Shown in pieces: positions 26,468 to 33,521 of a DNA stretch of 64,000 bases (positions are counted from its first letter, which is position 1; every line of letters begins with the position of its first letter). The notes under the pieces were generated by a model that was not told where the DNA came from, made no database searches, and saw nothing but the letters and a program-made list of their open reading frames with translations. Origin of the DNA: Gammaproteobacteria bacterium (GTDB lineage Bacteria; Pseudomonadota; Gammaproteobacteria; Nitrococcales; Nitrococcaceae); assembly GCA_030433275.1 (NCBI GenBank), contig JAUILK010000013.1, positions 1 through 64,000 of the forward strand. The letters run 5' to 3'. Made by a program: the position numbers and the translations under genes.

Positions 26468-26483
26468 TGGCATTCTTCATGCA
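26468..26483 (+). promoter_or_regulatory. sigma-54 (RpoN) promoter of the PEP-CTERM gene
   Basis: TGGCAT, five bases, then ATGCA gives the invariant GG (26469-26470) and GC (26481-26482) separated by exactly 10 bp, with most consensus positions of TGGCAC-N5-TTGCA kept. Transcription would begin near 26493, leaving a leader of about 49 nt before the ATG at 26542. The sigma-54 activator PrsR is encoded in the same window, and RpoN with PrsK/PrsR has been reported to control PEP-CTERM genes in floc-forming bacteria. Confidence 0.8.
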
Positions 26484-26541
26484 TTAACTTAACTGTCGAG
26501 GCATTTTGTGCGTGTGAAGAATTTTAAAGGAGTTGGTCGAG

Positions 26542-27513
26542 ATGAACACGAGAAAACTGGTTTCTACTCTAGGGATCGGACTGGCGTTGAGCTTTGCAAC
26601 CGGAGCGGCGCAAAGCGCATTACTAACTTTCGAGGACGATGACCTCGATTTCCTCTTGAGGGATAATTTCACCACCCCTGTAACAAGCGACACCAATTTT
26701 CAGGTGGGCGACACTTTGTTGAGTGTCTTTGAAATCCCGAATTTCACTACCGACGGTGTTAATTCAATCCCGGCTGGCCAGGAATTGACTGGCGTGGCGG
26801 GTGTTACGATAACGGGGATCAGCGATCCTACCTTTGCTGTTGGTACTACGATCACTTTCGGGGCGGCCGATCTCGATGGTATTTTGACAGCGAATGGGGT
26901 TAATCTGGCGGACCCGTTGGGGGCCGGAGCTGCGGTCGCCATGTTTTTTAATGGCGCGCCGGGTGCAGGTAACGATACCGATCTCCAAATAGCTATTACA
27001 GATGGGGCTCCTGCTGGGAATCCCAGTTGCACGAGCCTGACCGACTGCCTCGAGCAGGCAACCTTGGGTTCCAAGTTCCAGGTAGATGGTTTTTTGGGTG
27101 ATCCTGATGAGGGTTGGGTGTCTGTGGTAACACAGGCGGGTGGAGCCAATCCAAACACTGTTCTTGGTGTAAACAATACGCAAATCGTGGCTAGCTTCAA
27201 TGCCGCATTGAGCAATATCTTTCATGCGGGTGGGGACGTAGGGTTTATCGATATCACATCGGGCGGTGCGTGTGCTGGCCCGGGCGGTGTCGGTAATGCT
27301 GATGGCTGCGTGCAGCTGACCCTGAGTGGCACGGTTACTGGAGGCAGCGGCATTCCGGCTGATCACGGGGCCTTTGCCCACAGCGACTTCGATGCCAATA
27401 AGATAACGGCAGCCGTACCCGAGCCGGCGACTTTGCTGCTTTTGTCCGCGGGCCTGCTGGGAATTGGGGCCAGTCGCGGTGTTCAAAAGCACATCAAGAA
27501 TCACAAAGTGTAA
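26542..27513 (+). CDS. PEP-CTERM sorting domain protein (XrtA substrate)
   Basis: The 323-residue precursor has an N-terminal signal peptide (cleavage near AAQSA, about residue 26), a long Gly/Asn/Thr-rich low-lysine extracellular region with two Cys pairs (CTSLTDC, and CAGPGG with DGC), and a C-terminal sorting signal: VPEPATLLLLSAGLLGIG then Arg and Lys. Such proteins are inserted in the membrane and processed by exosortase A, then released or attached to the EPS matrix. The body matches no enzyme family I recognise. The ATG at 26542 has a GGAG ribosome site. It is transcribed alone from a sigma-54 promoter and ends at an intrinsic terminator. Confidence 0.93.
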   Translation: MNTRKLVSTLGIGLALSFATGAAQSALLTFEDDDLDFLLRDNFTTPVTSDTNFQVGDTLLSVFEIPNFTTDGVNSIPAGQELTGVAGVTITGISDPTFAVGTTITFGAADLDGILTANGVNLADPLGAGAAVAMFFNGAPGAGNDTDLQIAITDGAPAGNPSCTSLTDCLEQATLGSKFQVDGFLGDPDEGWVSVVTQAGGANPNTVLGVNNTQIVASFNAALSNIFHAGGDVGFIDITSGGACAGPGGVGNADGCVQLTLSGTVTGGSGIPADHGAFAHSDFDANKITAAVPEPATLLLLSAGLLGIGASRGVQKHIKNHKV

Positions 27514-27713: not shown

Positions 27714-29720
27714 CTAGGCCTCGTCCGGTAGCATGAGTTCCTCAACTGATAAGCGTGTCGAGCGCGATGTTGGCGGATTGCCTAACGGAAAACCGATGCG
27801 TCCGGCAAAAATAACCGTGTTTGGCGCAGTGCCCTGCAATGCCAGGGAAAGTTTTTTGTTGAGTTGCCCGGCTTTGCTTGCCCCCTTCTGGTTCGTGGTG
27901 AAAGGTATCCTATTGCGGCTGTAAAAAGAGAAGGCGAGTGGTGCCAGGGACGGTTGGACCACCAAGTTGAGCCTGGTCGCCGTTAACCAGAATCGTTGTA
28001 AGCGCATGCCGAGTTCCAGTAATTGCTCGTTACGCAAGCGGGTGTCTGGTGCCTCCTTGAGAGCCACCCAAAAATGCGCGGCGCAAAATAGTCCTGGTAT
28101 GAGGTCGAATTCCAGCCTTGGGGTTAGGGTCCCTGCTAGGTAGCGGTTTAGAAAATTCACGCGGGCCCAATCCGCGAGCGCCCAGCGCATCAGCCGCTGC
28201 GTGATGGGGTTTGCGCTGACGGCGGCCGCCGGCACACCTGCAGGACTTTTTTGCCTATGCCAATCGAGAATGCGTTGATGAATGGGATAGGCCTCCGGGA
28301 TAGAGAGGCGGATGTGGGTGGCGGCGGCGTTAATTAAGCCCCAGTGCCATCGCTCGGCCAGCGACTCCGCCCACCTGATCTGCACTTCATCGCCCAACGC
28401 CAATTCCAGCTGATGTCGAAGAGCAGGCGGTAGCCGCTTGAGCTGATACCGGCGGCGGTCCACAGAGCGTTGTACGATGACGCTATAAAGCTTATCAGCA
28501 TCTCCTCCGGCTATAGAAGCAAGTTTGATGCGGATCTGTTGCCTGCCTTCTTGGTTCGTCTCGAGTCGCCACGAAAGCTTACGGGCGTGCCTTGAGGCAG
28601 CGATTCGTAGAGTTTCAAGGAGAAACCCTCTGGAAAGCCAGCTCGGTTGGGCATCATTGTACTCATAGACATTATCGTTGCGCTCGGGCGGAATGTGAAT
28701 GACCATCTCCTCAGCGTCGAGTATTTGGAAGCGCCATGGCTGTGCGTTATCGCCGCTTGGTGCCCAGCGCGCCTGCTCCAGGATGTCCCAGATCTGTGCT
28801 GAGTGCGGTGGCTTGGGATTGGTGCGCTTTTTAGGCGGGTGTTCGCTTTGTCGATGGGTGACCGATGCGAGACGGCGCCGGGCAATTGCGAGCGCCAAGC
28901 GCTGAAGTGGGTTGCGGTTGCCCCAGGGGCGCCAGGTGTGGACCAGCTTGGTGCGATACGCATCGAAATGGATTCCTCGGGGCGCGAAGGGGACATGGCC
29001 GCGTCGGAGCAGGATTTTGAGCGCGACGGTCCCTGCTGCGCCAGCGCAGAGTTCGCATGCCATGGGAGTTGACGGGCCTTTTTGTCCAGCCAGATTGACT
29101 GCTTCGGGCGCCACCAAGTAGCGCATTTGCAGCATGGCTGGTGAGAGCCCGAGTAAAAAGCGCAGATACTGTTCCGATTGTATGGCGTCCTCAAGCTGGA
29201 AATACTCTTCGAAGCTTATTCCGGCCGGGTGAAATGCAAGTAGGGCGGTTCCCATTCCAAGAGGCGCGGCTGTGATTGCCGGGATGCCCCGGTTGGCGCA
29301 CTCTGCAAAGATCCTCCGACGTGCGTTCAAGGCAAAAAAGTCCAAACTATCAATGTAGAGATCAATGCCATCAAGAAAATCAATCAGATTGAATTCGGTG
29401 AGTCCTTCGGGAAATGTCCGAATCGAGAGTTCCGGGTTGATGTCCCGAGCTATCGTGGCTAATACCTCAAGCTTAGGCCTTTCAAGGGTCGACATAAATG
29501 CGCCCGCCTGTCGGTTGAGGTTTTCAATACCGAAGCTGTCCATTTCCGCGAGCGTGAAGGCACCGATACCGAGTCGGGTTAACGTGAGTAAGTGGCTGCC
29601 GCCTACACCGCCCAAGCCAGCGATGGCGATCCGTTTCGAGCGCAGGATTGCTTGTTCTTCCTGCGTGATCCAGCCAACGGTGCGGGAGAAGGCGAGCTGA
29701 TAGTCAAACCTTCCATCCAT
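27714..29720 (-). CDS. ThiF (E1-like) - nitroreductase fusion protein
   Basis: The 668-residue protein has an E1/ThiF-like adenylating domain in its first 290 residues (AIAGLGGVGGSHLLTLTRLG nucleotide motif, FGIENLNRQAGAFMS, then DSLDFFALNARRRIFAEC, and a CELC pair). A flavin nitroreductase-like domain follows (about 310-600, ARWAPSGDNAQPWRFQIL at its start). E1-like enzymes activate carboxylates as adenylates. Nitroreductase-type flavoenzymes reduce or dehydrogenate, for example azoline to azole. No ubiquitin-like or sulfur-carrier gene is adjacent. It is divergent from an exosortase-associated acyltransferase 298 bp away. A GGAG ribosome site precedes the ATG at 29720. The substrate is unknown; involvement in making a modified acyl compound is inference. 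Confidence 0.85.
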   Translation of the reverse strand: MDGRFDYQLAFSRTVGWITQEEQAILRSKRIAIAGLGGVGGSHLLTLTRLGIGAFTLAEMDSFGIENLNRQAGAFMSTLERPKLEVLATIARDINPELSIRTFPEGLTEFNLIDFLDGIDLYIDSLDFFALNARRRIFAECANRGIPAITAAPLGMGTALLAFHPAGISFEEYFQLEDAIQSEQYLRFLLGLSPAMLQMRYLVAPEAVNLAGQKGPSTPMACELCAGAAGTVALKILLRRGHVPFAPRGIHFDAYRTKLVHTWRPWGNRNPLQRLALAIARRRLASVTHRQSEHPPKKRTNPKPPHSAQIWDILEQARWAPSGDNAQPWRFQILDAEEMVIHIPPERNDNVYEYNDAQPSWLSRGFLLETLRIAASRHARKLSWRLETNQEGRQQIRIKLASIAGGDADKLYSVIVQRSVDRRRYQLKRLPPALRHQLELALGDEVQIRWAESLAERWHWGLINAAATHIRLSIPEAYPIHQRILDWHRQKSPAGVPAAAVSANPITQRLMRWALADWARVNFLNRYLAGTLTPRLEFDLIPGLFCAAHFWVALKEAPDTRLRNEQLLELGMRLQRFWLTATRLNLVVQPSLAPLAFSFYSRNRIPFTTNQKGASKAGQLNKKLSLALQGTAPNTVIFAGRIGFPLGNPPTSRSTRLSVEELMLPDEA

Positions 29721-30018
29721 GCGTGAGTCTCCATTCCATCTGTCCTTAGGGTGCGTTGTCGCTTGAGTGTATCGCCGCTGCAACCGCAGTGGTCTTTCAT
29801 GGGTACGAGGCGCGCTTGTGTGTCTCTCTGCTCTCAGGTCTGGCTAAGAAAATAGAACCGGTTTTCTTTTCATTGTTGAGGCGGGGCTCAAGCGCACTCT
29901 AGTGCGGCCGTTATTGTTTTTGATACGGAAAGCTCTTGGTGGTTGACTGGATGTATTTGATAAGAGCTGGCGTGGTGTCTGTTCCGTTTCTAGTCAACTG
30001 GGCATAAGGGAGTTGTTT

Positions 30019-30819
30019 ATGCAGCTTGAAGGCCCCGCTGTGAATCCGCCGAGCGAAGTTTATCGCGCATTTCATGACTACTTCGAAGTCATCCCGGCGG
30101 ATACGAGCGAACTGCTTGATGAAGTATTCGCATTGCGTTATCAAGTTTATTGTGTTGAGCATCCCTTTGAAAACCCACGGGAGCATCCCGATGGCAGGGA
30201 GTGGGATGAGTACGATGCCCGAGCCGTCCACGCACTGATTCGCCACAGGCGCACCGGCTGTTGCGCGGCCGCCGTGCGGTTGATTTTGCCAGATCCTTGC
30301 TATCCCGAAACGGTGTTTCCGCTTGAACGTGTCTGCGCGAACAGCCTCTACGAGGAGGCCAACCCCTGGGTCAGCAATCTCGACCGGCTTAAATCGGCCG
30401 AGATTTCCCGGCTTGCCGTATCCAAAACGTTCCGACGCCGTCTCGGGGAAGCCGAGACGGTCTCCGGTGTCAGCTCGCAAGCTGTTTATTCGGATGCACA
30501 GGGGCCGGATAGCCGAAGGCGCGGGTTTCCGCACATAACTTTGGGGCTGTTTGCCGCGATTGTTCGTATGTCCGTAGACCAGGGCATTTCCCATTGGCTT
30601 GCAGTTATGGAACCCACGCTGCTGCGGCTTCTGCAGCGCTTCGGTATCTATTTTCCACCCATTGGTCCGCTGGTCGAGTATCACGGCCTTCGGCAGCCGA
30701 CTGTGGCCGCGGCGGCTGCAGTCGTCGACGGTATATTGCGCAAGCGTCCCGATATATGGGAAATCGTTACCGACCGAGGCCGGTTCGTACCTCGATCTAC
30801 CGCGCATCCGCTGAAATGA
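30019..30819 (+). CDS. PEP-CTERM/exosortase-associated acyltransferase 1 (LuxI-like)
   Basis: The 266-residue protein matches the exosortase-associated acyltransferase family (TIGR03694-like), related in fold to acyl-homoserine-lactone synthases and GNATs. Visible landmarks are LRYQVYCVEHPFENP near the start, EWDEYDARAVHAL with the acidic pair, AAAVRLILPDP, and EISRLAVSKTFRRRLGE. These parallel the LuxI Arg/Asp/Glu catalytic set. It probably transfers an acyl chain to an amine-containing acceptor in the cytoplasm; the acceptor is unknown. The ATG at 30019 has AAGGGAG 6 nt upstream. It converges with the desaturase gene (32 bp apart). Confidence 0.88.
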   Translation: MQLEGPAVNPPSEVYRAFHDYFEVIPADTSELLDEVFALRYQVYCVEHPFENPREHPDGREWDEYDARAVHALIRHRRTGCCAAAVRLILPDPCYPETVFPLERVCANSLYEEANPWVSNLDRLKSAEISRLAVSKTFRRRLGEAETVSGVSSQAVYSDAQGPDSRRRGFPHITLGLFAAIVRMSVDQGISHWLAVMEPTLLRLLQRFGIYFPPIGPLVEYHGLRQPTVAAAAAVVDGILRKRPDIWEIVTDRGRFVPRSTAHPLK

Positions 30820-30851
30820 GGGCGCCGCGGCGCGGGCCGGACTTTTTATTG

Positions 30852-31832
30852 TCAGGTACTTCCGCTGCGGTCCCTGTCCGCTCCGGGCGATAGTATGAAT
30901 TTCAGGTAACTCCAGTAGCCATGGAATACTGCTTTTTCCTCGACCAGTCCATACCTGACAAAGGCATCATGCACTTTGGGCAACCGACTGAAGCTGATAC
31001 CGGGGAAATAATGGTGGTAGATGTGGTAACTAAAATTGAGGTTTGGCAATAACAGCCGTTCCCACCAGCGCATTGTGATCAGCGGTGTGGTTTCCTGCAC
31101 AGTGGCGTCTAGCCGATTGTACTGATGTTCGCAAACAGCCCCCCAGCGCACGATGATCTGGAAAACTGTGATCAGCGGTAACACCCAATAAAGCAGGAAA
31201 ATGGCCCATGTTCCTGTCGCGGTCAGAATGGTGGCAAGCAGTAGATAGTAGGCTGGGCGCAACCATAAGGGTACTCTGTTCTGCCTAGCGAAGCCCCTGC
31301 CCTTGGGCACTGCCTGTTTGCCTTTGATTAGTTTGATGATATTCAGGCCAAGTAAGTCTCTTGCCAGTATTTTCAGGAACTGATTTGTTCGCATCGGGTA
31401 GTTCCACTCTTCCCCGGACTTGCGAATATGGTCGGGATCCTGTTCGGTAAAGTATTTTGCGTGATGGGTCAGGTGAACCCGAGCGTAGCCTTCCACTGTG
31501 AGAACCATCAGGGGATAGGCCGCGAACAGGTTTGCGATGATGTCGCCGGGATAGGGCTTGAAACCGGTGCAGTGGGCCTGATCATGTACTAACAAGCCAA
31601 GGATGTTCTGCCGAGTGGCCACGATCAGTATGGCTGTCACGGTCATAAGCCAGTGATCGAGATGCACGGCGAGAGCGACAACAAAGAATATCACCAGCCA
31701 GGCACCAAGGAGTTCCAGCAGGAAGCGCCACGGTCGGCGTGTCTTGAGTGGTTTCAATTCCTCCAGCAATTGCGGCGGCAGCCTGGATTTATCTTCCCTG
31801 ACTGCCGCTGGGAGCAATTTTGTCAGGTGCAT
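30852..31832 (-). CDS. membrane fatty acid desaturase
   Basis: The 326-residue membrane protein has the three histidine boxes of the desaturase/hydroxylase superfamily: HDQAHC (about 103-108), HLTHH (about 142-146) and HIYHH (about 270-274), with four or more hydrophobic segments between. These bind a di-iron centre that introduces a double bond or hydroxyl into an acyl chain or related lipid. Placement between two exosortase-associated acyltransferases suggests it acts on the acyl group they transfer, but general membrane-lipid desaturation is equally possible. An AAGGGG ribosome site lies 9 nt before the ATG. Confidence 0.9.
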   Translation of the reverse strand: MHLTKLLPAAVREDKSRLPPQLLEELKPLKTRRPWRFLLELLGAWLVIFFVVALAVHLDHWLMTVTAILIVATRQNILGLLVHDQAHCTGFKPYPGDIIANLFAAYPLMVLTVEGYARVHLTHHAKYFTEQDPDHIRKSGEEWNYPMRTNQFLKILARDLLGLNIIKLIKGKQAVPKGRGFARQNRVPLWLRPAYYLLLATILTATGTWAIFLLYWVLPLITVFQIIVRWGAVCEHQYNRLDATVQETTPLITMRWWERLLLPNLNFSYHIYHHYFPGISFSRLPKVHDAFVRYGLVEEKAVFHGYWSYLKFILSPGADRDRSGST

Positions 31833-32407
31833 TGAGCATGGCCCCTTAGTTCGATAGCGGCGGTAGGATTTGTGTTGATAGGAGGAACTCTGGAGGCTCG
31901 TATCCTACGCGGGTTTCTATAGGGCATGAAACCCTACGATTACCATTGCGTCGGGAGCTGTGGAAAAGGTCGAAATTGTCGCCCGGGCGCTATTCGTCTC
32001 GTACGCTTCTGCTGTCGTGATAGTTAAAACTGCGGCCCGTTGGTGTGCTCTTGCTGCGCTGCGCCCGCCGGCTGTGCAAATCGGGTAATTTCTGCCGATC
32101 AGTACCGCGCGTCCGTTATGATAGCTACCATGTCGAGTACCGGCTGACGTCCAGCTGCAAACGCTAGGACCTTTTGTGCAAAGCGTGCGACGCACCGTCG
32201 AGTGTGCGGCATTACTCTCGATTGGTGTGGACGAGGTGTTTCTTGAGCAGTTAGTGCCTCATACCCGTTACGCTTCCTGTTCGTGAGCCAGCTGCGCTGG
32301 GTGGTGCTCCAGCGTGGCCCGCTTGATGGTGCCATTCGGGTCCGAGCTCAATAAACATGACTGACTGTTTTGCTGCAGCGTCGGGCCGTTTGGACGACCC
32401 AAGATAA
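31833..32407. other. 575-bp gap between desaturase and acyltransferase 2
   Basis: No gene is recognised. Short minus-strand frames (for example 31917-32195 and 32099-32335) lack ribosome sites and conserved motifs. The gap contains small perfect inverted repeats: 7-bp arms at 31911-31917/31928-31934 with a 10-nt loop, and 7-bp arms at 31863-31869/31902-31908. These may be terminators or regulatory structures for the desaturase leader. Confidence 0.45.
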
Positions 32408-33121
32408 TTACGCGGCCGATGCGGCCTGAGCCAAACCGCTGATTCCCTCGAGTGTGGCGCCATCGGCCCAAGGCTCATTGTCTACATGGGCAAACGCAGA
32501 CTCCGAGAAATAGTGGCAGAAGCGTCCGGCGCTGAGATTTCGGCGAGCCCAGGGAATATTCTCAATGGCTTGCCTGACTGAGGCGCTGAATGCTTGACGC
32601 TGCCCCCTATGTTCTACGGGCGGGCCGCATTCCTCCATCGGCACACCTATGCGAGCGAGAATACGTGCTAGCCCAGGTGAGATCAGGAAAACCAGATGTT
32701 CAACGCTCCGCCGGCGGCTGTAGTCGAGCAGACCGGTTATGGTCGCTTGTAATAAATGACGGTTACTCGGCGACCATCGACAGGCGCTGCGCAGCGCCGC
32801 TAGGCGGGATACTTCGGCAACCGGTGATCTGAGGAGCTGTTGCTCTGCATGTAGGTAAAGCGCGCCCATCTTCTGTACGGGAAGCCGCGCATGTGTGCTC
32901 ATGATCAGCCGTGCGGTTCCTTGCCAGGCTTTGGCTGTGCCGTTGCGTACAATAAAATGAGTAGCAAACGCATCGTGACGGTCGTGTTCTTCTGGAATTC
33001 CGGCGTCAATGGGATTCTCATAGTGTTTGCGCTCACAATAGACACGATAGCGAAGGTGGTGGTGGATAGTGCGCGCTAGGCCCGTGTCAGCGATATATAC
33101 TGAATACTGTTTTTTCAGCAT
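32408..33121 (-). CDS. PEP-CTERM/exosortase-associated acyltransferase 2 (LuxI-like)
   Basis: This 237-residue protein is a divergent relative of the acyltransferase at 30019. It keeps LRYRVYCERKHYENP near residue 25, EEHDRHDAFATHFIV (acidic pair), WQGTARLIM and AEVSRLAAL, the positions expected for the acyl-homoserine-lactone-synthase-like fold. Its central and C-terminal parts differ strongly from copy 1, suggesting a different acceptor or acyl donor. It is transcribed away from the EPS operon, sharing the AT-rich intergenic region 33122-33590. It is upstream of the desaturase in the same direction, though 575 bp apart. Confidence 0.82.
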   Translation of the reverse strand: MLKKQYSVYIADTGLARTIHHHLRYRVYCERKHYENPIDAGIPEEHDRHDAFATHFIVRNGTAKAWQGTARLIMSTHARLPVQKMGALYLHAEQQLLRSPVAEVSRLAALRSACRWSPSNRHLLQATITGLLDYSRRRSVEHLVFLISPGLARILARIGVPMEECGPPVEHRGQRQAFSASVRQAIENIPWARRNLSAGRFCHYFSESAFAHVDNEPWADGATLEGISGLAQAASAA

Positions 33122-33521
33122 TGATTTATTTCTTTCATTGAGGATGTGGATTAATTCACTTTCCGTGTGGCAACATTGCTGTCAAAATCGCCGTCGGCTG
33201 AATGCCAAAGCTTGCGTTCCAACAGCAGAAATCATACCAATTGAATAATAATTGTTATTTTTCAATAAATTAATTATTAGAAGGCGGGAAAATGCTGTCG
33301 TCGAAAAACGACGGTATGCAGTGCTTTGGGCCGGGCTAAAATCTGCTAATGCAGCGGGGTTCTCCTTGTTGAGCGGATGTCACTAAACGGCGACATTTTG
33401 TGCCCTGCAACGGCAGTAAAATGAGCTAAGCTCATCGATACGGCGGTGACTTCGTGGTATGAAGCGGACGAGTGATGTAGGCCATTGGATTAATATACAC
33501 AGCCTGGATGCTTGCTTCCCT
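33122..33521. other. AT-rich divergent intergenic region before the EPS operon
   Basis: The stretch 33236-33282 is strongly AT-rich and includes a near-match to the IHF consensus at 33260-33272 (one mismatch). An inverted pair of short arms lies at 33302-33313 around AAAA. It must carry the promoter for the minus-strand acyltransferase and regulatory DNA for the EPS operon. No gene is seen. Confidence 0.5.

Follow-up and report, generated by a model that had tools for sequence, protein, structure and literature searches.

The locus at positions 27714-33121 of a 64,000-nucleotide stretch from a Nitrococcaceae bacterium (contig JAUILK010000013.1, positions 1 to 64,000 of the forward strand; this whole stretch is hereafter called the window) raises the question of what compound is made by a ThiF-nitroreductase fusion protein, two acyltransferases (AT1 and AT2) and a desaturase-family enzyme (DES) that are encoded between a PEP-CTERM protein gene and an XrtA exopolysaccharide locus. 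The first-pass annotation had proposed a possible undescribed acyl-compound pathway tied to the exosortase system. Our results suggest that the cluster is probably an XrtA-linked cassette for an acyl-oxazolone (azlactone) or N-acyl-dehydroamino acid in a Nitrococcus-like bacterium, and the type of pathway is already known. The four genes were confirmed at this place with the domains and motifs attributed to them, as indicated by the open reading frames (ORFs), the Pfam and TIGR03694 matches, the catalytic residues and the His boxes:

27714-29783, minus strand: ThiF-nitroreductase fusion of 689 amino acids, with Pfam ThiF and Nitroreductase matches, a match to NF006077 and a fold match to 2YMV
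30013-30819, plus strand: AT1, an N-acyltransferase of the LuxI/FeeM type, 268 amino acids, a TIGR03694 member with the catalytic residues
30852-31832, minus strand: DES, an accessory enzyme of the fatty-acid-desaturase family, 326 amino acids, with PF00487 and three His boxes
32408-33121, minus strand: AT2, a second acyltransferase of a separate clade, 237 amino acids, recognized by TIGR03694 (under the cut-off), its clade and its predicted model

Judged from its sequence, the fusion is most likely a ThiF-like adenylating cyclase joined to an Acg-like flavin oxidase of the nitroreductase fold. Pfam placed ThiF (PF00899) at residues 37-292 with 116.8 bits and Nitroreductase (PF00881) at residues 323-373 with 39.3 bits, and the strongest model for the ThiF half was NF006077 (425.6 bits, cut-off 266). 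This half also matched E. coli ThiF and TcdA by sequence. The G-x-G-G-x-G motif and the ATP-site aspartate D148, which aligns with the aspartate of the T-D-N motif of ThiF, were kept in all eight aligned fusions. The model predicted from eight sequences had a mean predicted local distance difference test score (pLDDT) of 60; its ThiF half was poor, and the flavin half alone was usable. In a fold search with this model, the Acg homologue 2YMV came first (E 4.3e-10) as the sole match below 0.001, followed by TcdA, ThiF and other nitroreductases, each with E above 0.001. The structure 2YMV is the closest solved relative and was used by the authors for TrzS as well (PMC12856293). The likelier start of the fusion is a conserved ATG at residue 22 (position 29720). 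The fusion and AT1 are divergently transcribed, and their listed ORFs are 229 bp apart. The window is Nitrococcus-like, as a metagenome-assembled genome of Nitrococcus mobilis (stretch L049, identical with stretch L077 of genome G232; L labels denote stretches and G labels genomes) encodes the fusion at 89% identity.

AT1 is a strong member of TIGR03694 (273.4 bits, cut-off 111.95) and matched the Pfam families Acetyltransf_5 (58.1 bits) and FeeM (29.8 bits), each above its cut-off, while AT2 scored 106.3 bits against TIGR03694, slightly below the cut-off. Both proteins contain the acidic pair and the E-x-S-R residues (E63, D65, D68, E130, S132 and R133 in AT1; E45, D47, D50, E103, S105 and R106 in AT2). 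Among 45 aligned acyltransferase rows, R42, E63, D65, D68, R89, E130 and R133 (AT1 numbering), which we take to be the LuxI-type catalytic set, were present in every row, and S132 was present in 44. The tree of these rows, rooted at the midpoint for drawing, was divided into an AT1 group of 32 rows and an AT2 group of 13 with support 99/97, and 12 of the 13 loci with an AT2-group row also had an AT1-group row, L055 being the exception. The enzymes of the two clades recur as a pair, which is a new detail, although no literature search was aimed at the pairing. AT2 may serve another acyl chain or another amino acid, or it may act as a partner subunit. A frame of 534 residues (L032:18295-19899; cut by the end of the stretch, 1379 residues in G061) has an acyltransferase domain in its second half and is a possible larger fusion.

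It is reported that acyl-oxazolone pathways consist of an N-acyltransferase and a fusion of ThiF and flavin oxidase in OxzAB and TrzAS, and of unfused enzymes in TyzACB (PMC10404671, PMC12856293). TrzS acts in two steps: its ThiF half uses ATP to cyclise N-acyl tryptophan, after which its flavin half uses O2 to desaturate the product (PMC12856293). The type of pathway is thus not undescribed, as had been thought possible: acyl-oxazolone biosynthesis is published chemistry (PMC10404671, PMC12856293), and a cluster with the whole gene set is on record from Stieleria maiorica (PMC7293339). OxzAB of Pseudoalteromonas rubra, the source of acyl-tyrazolones and -phenazolones, resembles the window in combining an acyltransferase with a ThiF-nitroreductase fusion in a proteobacterium; the likeness is one of description, and the parts of PMC10404671 and PMC12856293 used here do not mention an exosortase tie. 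TrzAS (Rv1356c-Rv1355c) of mycobacteria and Rhodococcus, which leads to N-acyl tryptazolones, also has ThiF first, flavin second and the acyltransferase adjacent, but it has one acyltransferase gene and the window has two (PMC12856293). TyzACB of M. tuberculosis has the three activities of the window with ThiF and flavin oxidase as separate genes (PMC10404671), and separate neighbouring ThiF and nitroreductase genes were found in L034, L044, L047 and L078. Kallscheuer et al. (2020, PMC7293339) described the Stieleria cluster and proposed that it is connected with biofilm and with the assembly of polysaccharide. Like the window, the stieleriacine cluster of Stieleria maiorica contains acyltransferases, ThiF, an oxidoreductase/nitroreductase, a desaturase, PEP-CTERM and, upstream, polysaccharide genes; unlike the window, it belongs to a planctomycete, its ThiF and nitroreductase are encoded separately, and it has four acyltransferases and a methyltransferase (PMC7293339, PMC12479983). 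No paper that explicitly connects acyl-oxazolone enzymes with XrtA loci was found among the open-access papers searched, judged mostly from listings, and the one such paper in which the words oxazolone and exosortase both occur uses them in unrelated places. Craig, Cherry and Brady (2011) reportedly tied synthases of N-acyl amino acids to PEP-CTERM/exosortase systems; going by the title, these are acyltransferases at exosortase loci with the function proposed for AT1 and AT2.

The tie to the exosortase system found statistical and positional support. We sampled 229 genomes of the class in a single draw (196 genera, many drafts), in which ThiF relatives were called at E 1e-30 and TIGR03694 and TIGR03013, the XrtA marker, at their own cut-offs; they were present in 21, 29 and 72 genomes, respectively. 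TIGR03694 occurred in 17 of the 21 genomes with a ThiF relative and in 12 of the 208 others (Fisher p 1.2e-14). In these 17 genomes, the two genes always shared a contig, at a distance of up to 1 kb in 11, up to 3 kb in 14 and up to 7 kb in 16, with 10.8 kb in one. TIGR03013 was present in 19/21 ThiF genomes and 53/208 others (Fisher p 5.4e-9), on the contig of ThiF in 12 of the 19 and on different contigs in 7. The refuting condition named in the first-pass annotation, that the four genes are rarely together, turned out as three families that stay together and one, DES, that is accessory; acyltransferase, ThiF protein and XrtA marker were associated above chance.

A one-protein version is encoded on plasmid pDVUL01 of Nitratidesulfovibrio vulgaris DP4, where a protein of 989 amino acids (L081:7068-10037) contains FeeM at residues 43-198, ThiF at 316-565 and Nitroreductase at 609-638. 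Its annotated neighbours are an XrtA chain-length determinant, a polysaccharide export protein, a TIGR03013 glycosyltransferase, a tetratricopeptide protein and three PEP-CTERM proteins. Because the three domains share one protein beside XrtA/PEP-CTERM genes, this arrangement supports both a single pathway and its XrtA tie in another phylum. When AT1 and AT2 were compared by BLAST with its first 311 residues, there was no match (best E 0.087 and 0.13), so its FeeM domain is of another subfamily.

Taken together, the TrzS-like domain order, the 2YMV fold match, D148, the acyltransferase residues, the co-occurrence and the three-in-one fusion argue for acyl-oxazolone synthesis, as does the presence of these kinds of enzyme in those Stieleria that make N-acyl dehydrotyrosines. 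As first proposed, the best reading of the cluster is that its product is N-acylated and is modified by the E1-like and nitroreductase parts. We infer the substrates, reaction order, product and role as follows. AT1, perhaps together with AT2, would transfer a fatty acyl group from acyl-coenzyme A or acyl-acyl carrier protein to the amino nitrogen of a probably aromatic amino acid. The ThiF half would adenylate the carboxylate with ATP, upon which the amide oxygen would close the five-membered oxazolone ring, and the flavin half would next introduce the 2,3 double bond with O2. Later opening of the ring by water or alcohol may give an N-acyl-dehydroamino acid, as in the stieleriacines, and DES, where present, would most likely unsaturate the acyl chain. 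The position beside the XrtA locus suggests that the compound is used in or around the biofilm matrix.

DES matched FA_desaturase (PF00487) with 128 bits and has the His boxes HDQAH, HLTHH and HIYHH; against NF041365, the model of the guanitoxin arginine hydroxylase GntB, it scored 105.1 bits (cut-off 380). It had been counted among the conserved four genes, a place that the comparison did not bear out. In L049, the closest relative and syntenic with the window, the gap between AT2 and AT1 is about 80 bp, and a DES relative was found nowhere in that genome. Beside the cluster, DES was seen only in the window, in L050 (Methylothermaceae) and in G229, a genome of the same genus in which the gene is 89% identical and separates AT2 from AT1. 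The relative in L050 has 47-48% identity and is 2.6 kb away from the fusion; a GMC oxidoreductase, a methyltransferase and a PEP-CTERM gene accompany it, which resembles the Stieleria maiorica cluster. A search of 36 stretches (L029-L064) returned a DES relative in L050 only. In another comparison, 2 of 25 relatives had DES, with the window counted. Among the 229 class genomes, DES was found in 8 (E 1e-20), on the same contig as the fusion in the window alone; G010 has a 43% relative on a contig other than that of its ThiF. A neighbourhood association above chance was not found for DES. As it is absent from the syntenic closest relative and rare near the fusion elsewhere, DES was rejected as a core component and is regarded as an accessory tailoring enzyme. 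In the Stieleria maiorica study, the fatty acid moiety was proposed as the target of the desaturase (PMC7293339).

The flanking PEP-CTERM gene and XrtA locus were confirmed, and putative promoter sites were recorded before two of the genes:

26533-27513, plus strand: PEP-CTERM surface protein gene, TIGR02595 with 20.5 bits (cut-off 16)
33573-54404, plus strand: XrtA exopolysaccharide and sorting locus with exosortase A last, from NCBIfam matches
26468-26483, plus strand: sigma-54-like -24/-12 site upstream of the PEP-CTERM gene, matrix score 12.6, between the 95% and 99% null
33224-33239, minus strand: weak sigma-54-like GG-N10-GC site upstream of AT2, score 9.7, below the 95% null

In the XrtA locus, TIGR03013, PrsK, PrsR, PrsT, the export, chain-length and tyrosine kinase proteins, TIGR03016, the deacetylase, FemAB, the glycosyltransferase and exosortase A (TIGR03109, 348.3 bits, cut-off 208) were above their cut-offs, and the ATPase was below (TIGR03015, 299.7 bits, cut-off 324.5). 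Relatives of the window PEP-CTERM protein (43-45%) were also observed in Zoogloeaceae near ThiF and acyltransferase genes (L060:2101-3096, L063:3953-4867). Large tetratricopeptide genes related to one another lie near ThiF in L036:8066-13840, L039:6088-8886, L041:11622-14423, L054:14142-16994, L059:7032-9884, L064:11153-13945 and L078:10910-13717, the last of which matches the window PrsT with 26%.

The promoter-like sites were scored with a matrix written by hand from a consensus against a null of 3000 random stretches of the same loci, coding included. Of 22 PEP-CTERM genes, 18 had an upstream site over the 95% null and 12 over the 99% null (a 23rd was dropped, its upstream being too short); with this matrix and null, and with the PEP-CTERM genes chosen by motif search, the enrichment is approximate. 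Sites over the 95% null were found at 0/41 ThiF genes, 3/31 AT1 genes and 0/3 DES genes, which speaks against a tight exosortase tie; for AT2 they were 3/12, with none over 99%. The site before the PEP-CTERM gene is largely conserved in L049, and the GG-N10-GC spacing before AT2 is kept in the window, L049 and L074. Over the whole window, the search for the sigma-54 consensus gave 41 sites against a shuffle mean of 35.2, which is chance level. For sigma-70-like sites, the count was 8 against a mean of 5.1, close to chance. Common sigma-54 control of the acyl and PEP-CTERM genes was therefore unsupported, with AT2 perhaps excepted, because the sites mark PEP-CTERM genes and rarely acyl genes.

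Pfam tallies of the neighbouring genes were made from greedy ORF picks, some of them spurious, of which 201 of 228 were scanned (94 + 107). They leave out the picks of L049 (5), its duplicate L077 (5) and L076 (11), and one pick each from L032, L036, L045, L051, L058 and L063. An MMPL transporter with DUF1302-like and LolA-like genes was seen near ThiF in 9 of 43 stretches (L029, L031, L033, L038, L041, L045, L048, L079 and L080) and may serve to export the acyl product; in M. tuberculosis, tyz is near mmpL9 (PMC10404671). Such genes were not found among the window ORFs scanned, which were part of all ORFs.

Within the genus, acyltransferase and fusion were found in three of five genomes and not in G230 and G231, drafts of more than 400 contigs each. 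A 91% relative of the window PEP-CTERM protein again adjoins the fusion in L049. In G229, the fusion has 52% and AT1 84% identity to those of the window, next to the 89% of DES, and the PEP-CTERM neighbour of the fusion gave no BLAST match to the window PEP-CTERM protein. The region of this fusion contains a DDE-family transposase, and a reading frame between AT1 and the fusion is IS66-like by eye, with no Pfam match on the strand scanned. A shortened second copy of the fusion and PEP-CTERM pair lies about 0.2 Mb away, its fusion part being 98% and its PEP-CTERM protein 89% identical:

L074:16504-17523: G229 PEP-CTERM gene copy adjoining a ThiF-nitroreductase copy
L076:10184-11209: G229 PEP-CTERM gene copy adjoining the shortened fusion copy

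Because the G229 fusion and its neighbour both differ from those of the window and the pair is duplicated, it appears that the fusion moved jointly with the PEP-CTERM gene, in one exchange and one duplication. This is a new detail, although no literature search was aimed at joint exchange, and mere physical nearness of the two genes could explain it. The TIGR03013 glycosyltransferase gene of G229 (L074:6241-7684) aligns as two pieces, 98% and 87%, which may reflect a frameshift or a sequencing error.

Several points weigh against the assignment of the cluster to acyl-oxazolone synthesis. The product is inferred, and none is known from the organism of the window. The fusion is not an equivalog of TrzS, because its score against NF005901 (Rv1355c/TrzS) is 131.2 bits, far below the cut-off of 476; the two are likened by domain order and fold. 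The Fisher tests take no account of phylogeny, and the families also occur apart: 4 of 21 ThiF genomes are without an acyltransferase over the cut-off, 12 of 29 acyltransferase genomes and 53 of 72 TIGR03013 genomes without a ThiF relative. Of the four ThiF genomes concerned, G066 has a divergent ThiF (35%), G147 shows an acyltransferase match that is weak (28 bits) and 1.6 kb from ThiF, and in G070 and G200 ThiF and nitroreductase lie on contigs of 14 and 10 kb, so short that the absence is weak evidence. A match to the window nitroreductase was not found near ThiF in several loci, such as L029, L031, L041, L079 and L080. Nitratidesulfovibrio is a sulphate reducer, in which a flavin step that depends on O2 would be surprising; a different electron acceptor may serve there.

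Other functions of the enzymes were also considered. The fusion belongs to the ThiF superfamily, and its ThiF half might be an E1 that acts on a small carrier protein in protein conjugation or sulphur transfer. This is scarcely credible, because the position of the aligned ThiF cysteine, presumably the catalytic transfer site, is L207 in the window and Leu, Ile or Val, never Cys, in all eight aligned fusions, and because the best model is the ThiF-like NF006077, with the ThiF, MoeB and MoeZ models far under their cut-offs. It is also very improbable that AT1 or AT2 is an acyl-homoserine-lactone (AHL) synthase and the cluster a quorum-sensing system. AT2 weakly matched AHL synthase models (PRK13834, 32.6 bits), and its predicted model (mean pLDDT 81) matched the AHL synthases TofI, BjaI and LasI, but the fold match to FeeM was about equal, and against the AHL synthase model NF010408 (TraI) AT1 and AT2 scored 19.5 and 32.6 bits, far under the cut-off of 292. 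We know of no part of a ThiF-flavin enzyme in AHL synthesis, which counts further against this function.

There is some possibility, short of an even chance, that an N-acyl-2,3-dehydroamino acid of the stieleriacine or thalassotalic acid type is released as the final product, the ring being transient and enabling desaturation. Sauer et al. (2025, PMC12479983) connected ThiF and nitroreductase genes with N-acyl dehydrotyrosines; the Stieleria, Thalassotalea and Massilia producers carry such genes, and oxazolones were not observed from them. Moreover, oxazolones are easily hydrolysed (PMC12856293). However, acid-free work-up revealed the oxazolones themselves in Rhodococcus and M. smegmatis (PMC12856293), so the open acids may partly be products of the work-up. 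We consider it rather unlikely that the XrtA adjacency is incidental and the acyl cassette a mobile metabolic module that lies near an exopolysaccharide locus. Such a module would agree with the mycobacterial clusters, which adjoin other genes (PMC12856293, PMC10404671). It would also agree with the scarcity of sigma-54-like sites at acyl genes, the XrtA marker 23 kb (G021) and 57 kb (G134) from ThiF, the transposase near the G229 fusion and the two genus genomes in which the module was not found. On the other hand, ThiF and TIGR03013 lie within 15 kb in 10 of the 19 genomes having both, and a like arrangement is present in another phylum (pDVUL01) and in Stieleria (PMC7293339).

If the cassette does make acyl-oxazolones, its place beside the XrtA locus allows a further role, which we regard as improbable at present. 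The oxazolone might be an activated acyl donor, not a free signal, by which an N-acyl-dehydroamino acid would be bound covalently to exopolysaccharide amines or to the PEP-CTERM protein, resulting in a lipid-decorated matrix. This idea is based on the reaction of azlactones with amines and on the deacetylase of the XrtA locus, which would free amino groups on the exopolysaccharide. If it is true, the joint exchange and duplication of the fusion and the PEP-CTERM gene would reflect an enzyme and its target. In the literature drawn on here, two open questions meet at this locus, namely the role of bacterial oxazolones, which was called a major unresolved question (PMC12856293), and the function of those N-acyl amino acid synthases that are encoded at exosortase loci. 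The conserved XrtA setting makes the role of the oxazolones easier to test through matrix and PEP-CTERM phenotypes.

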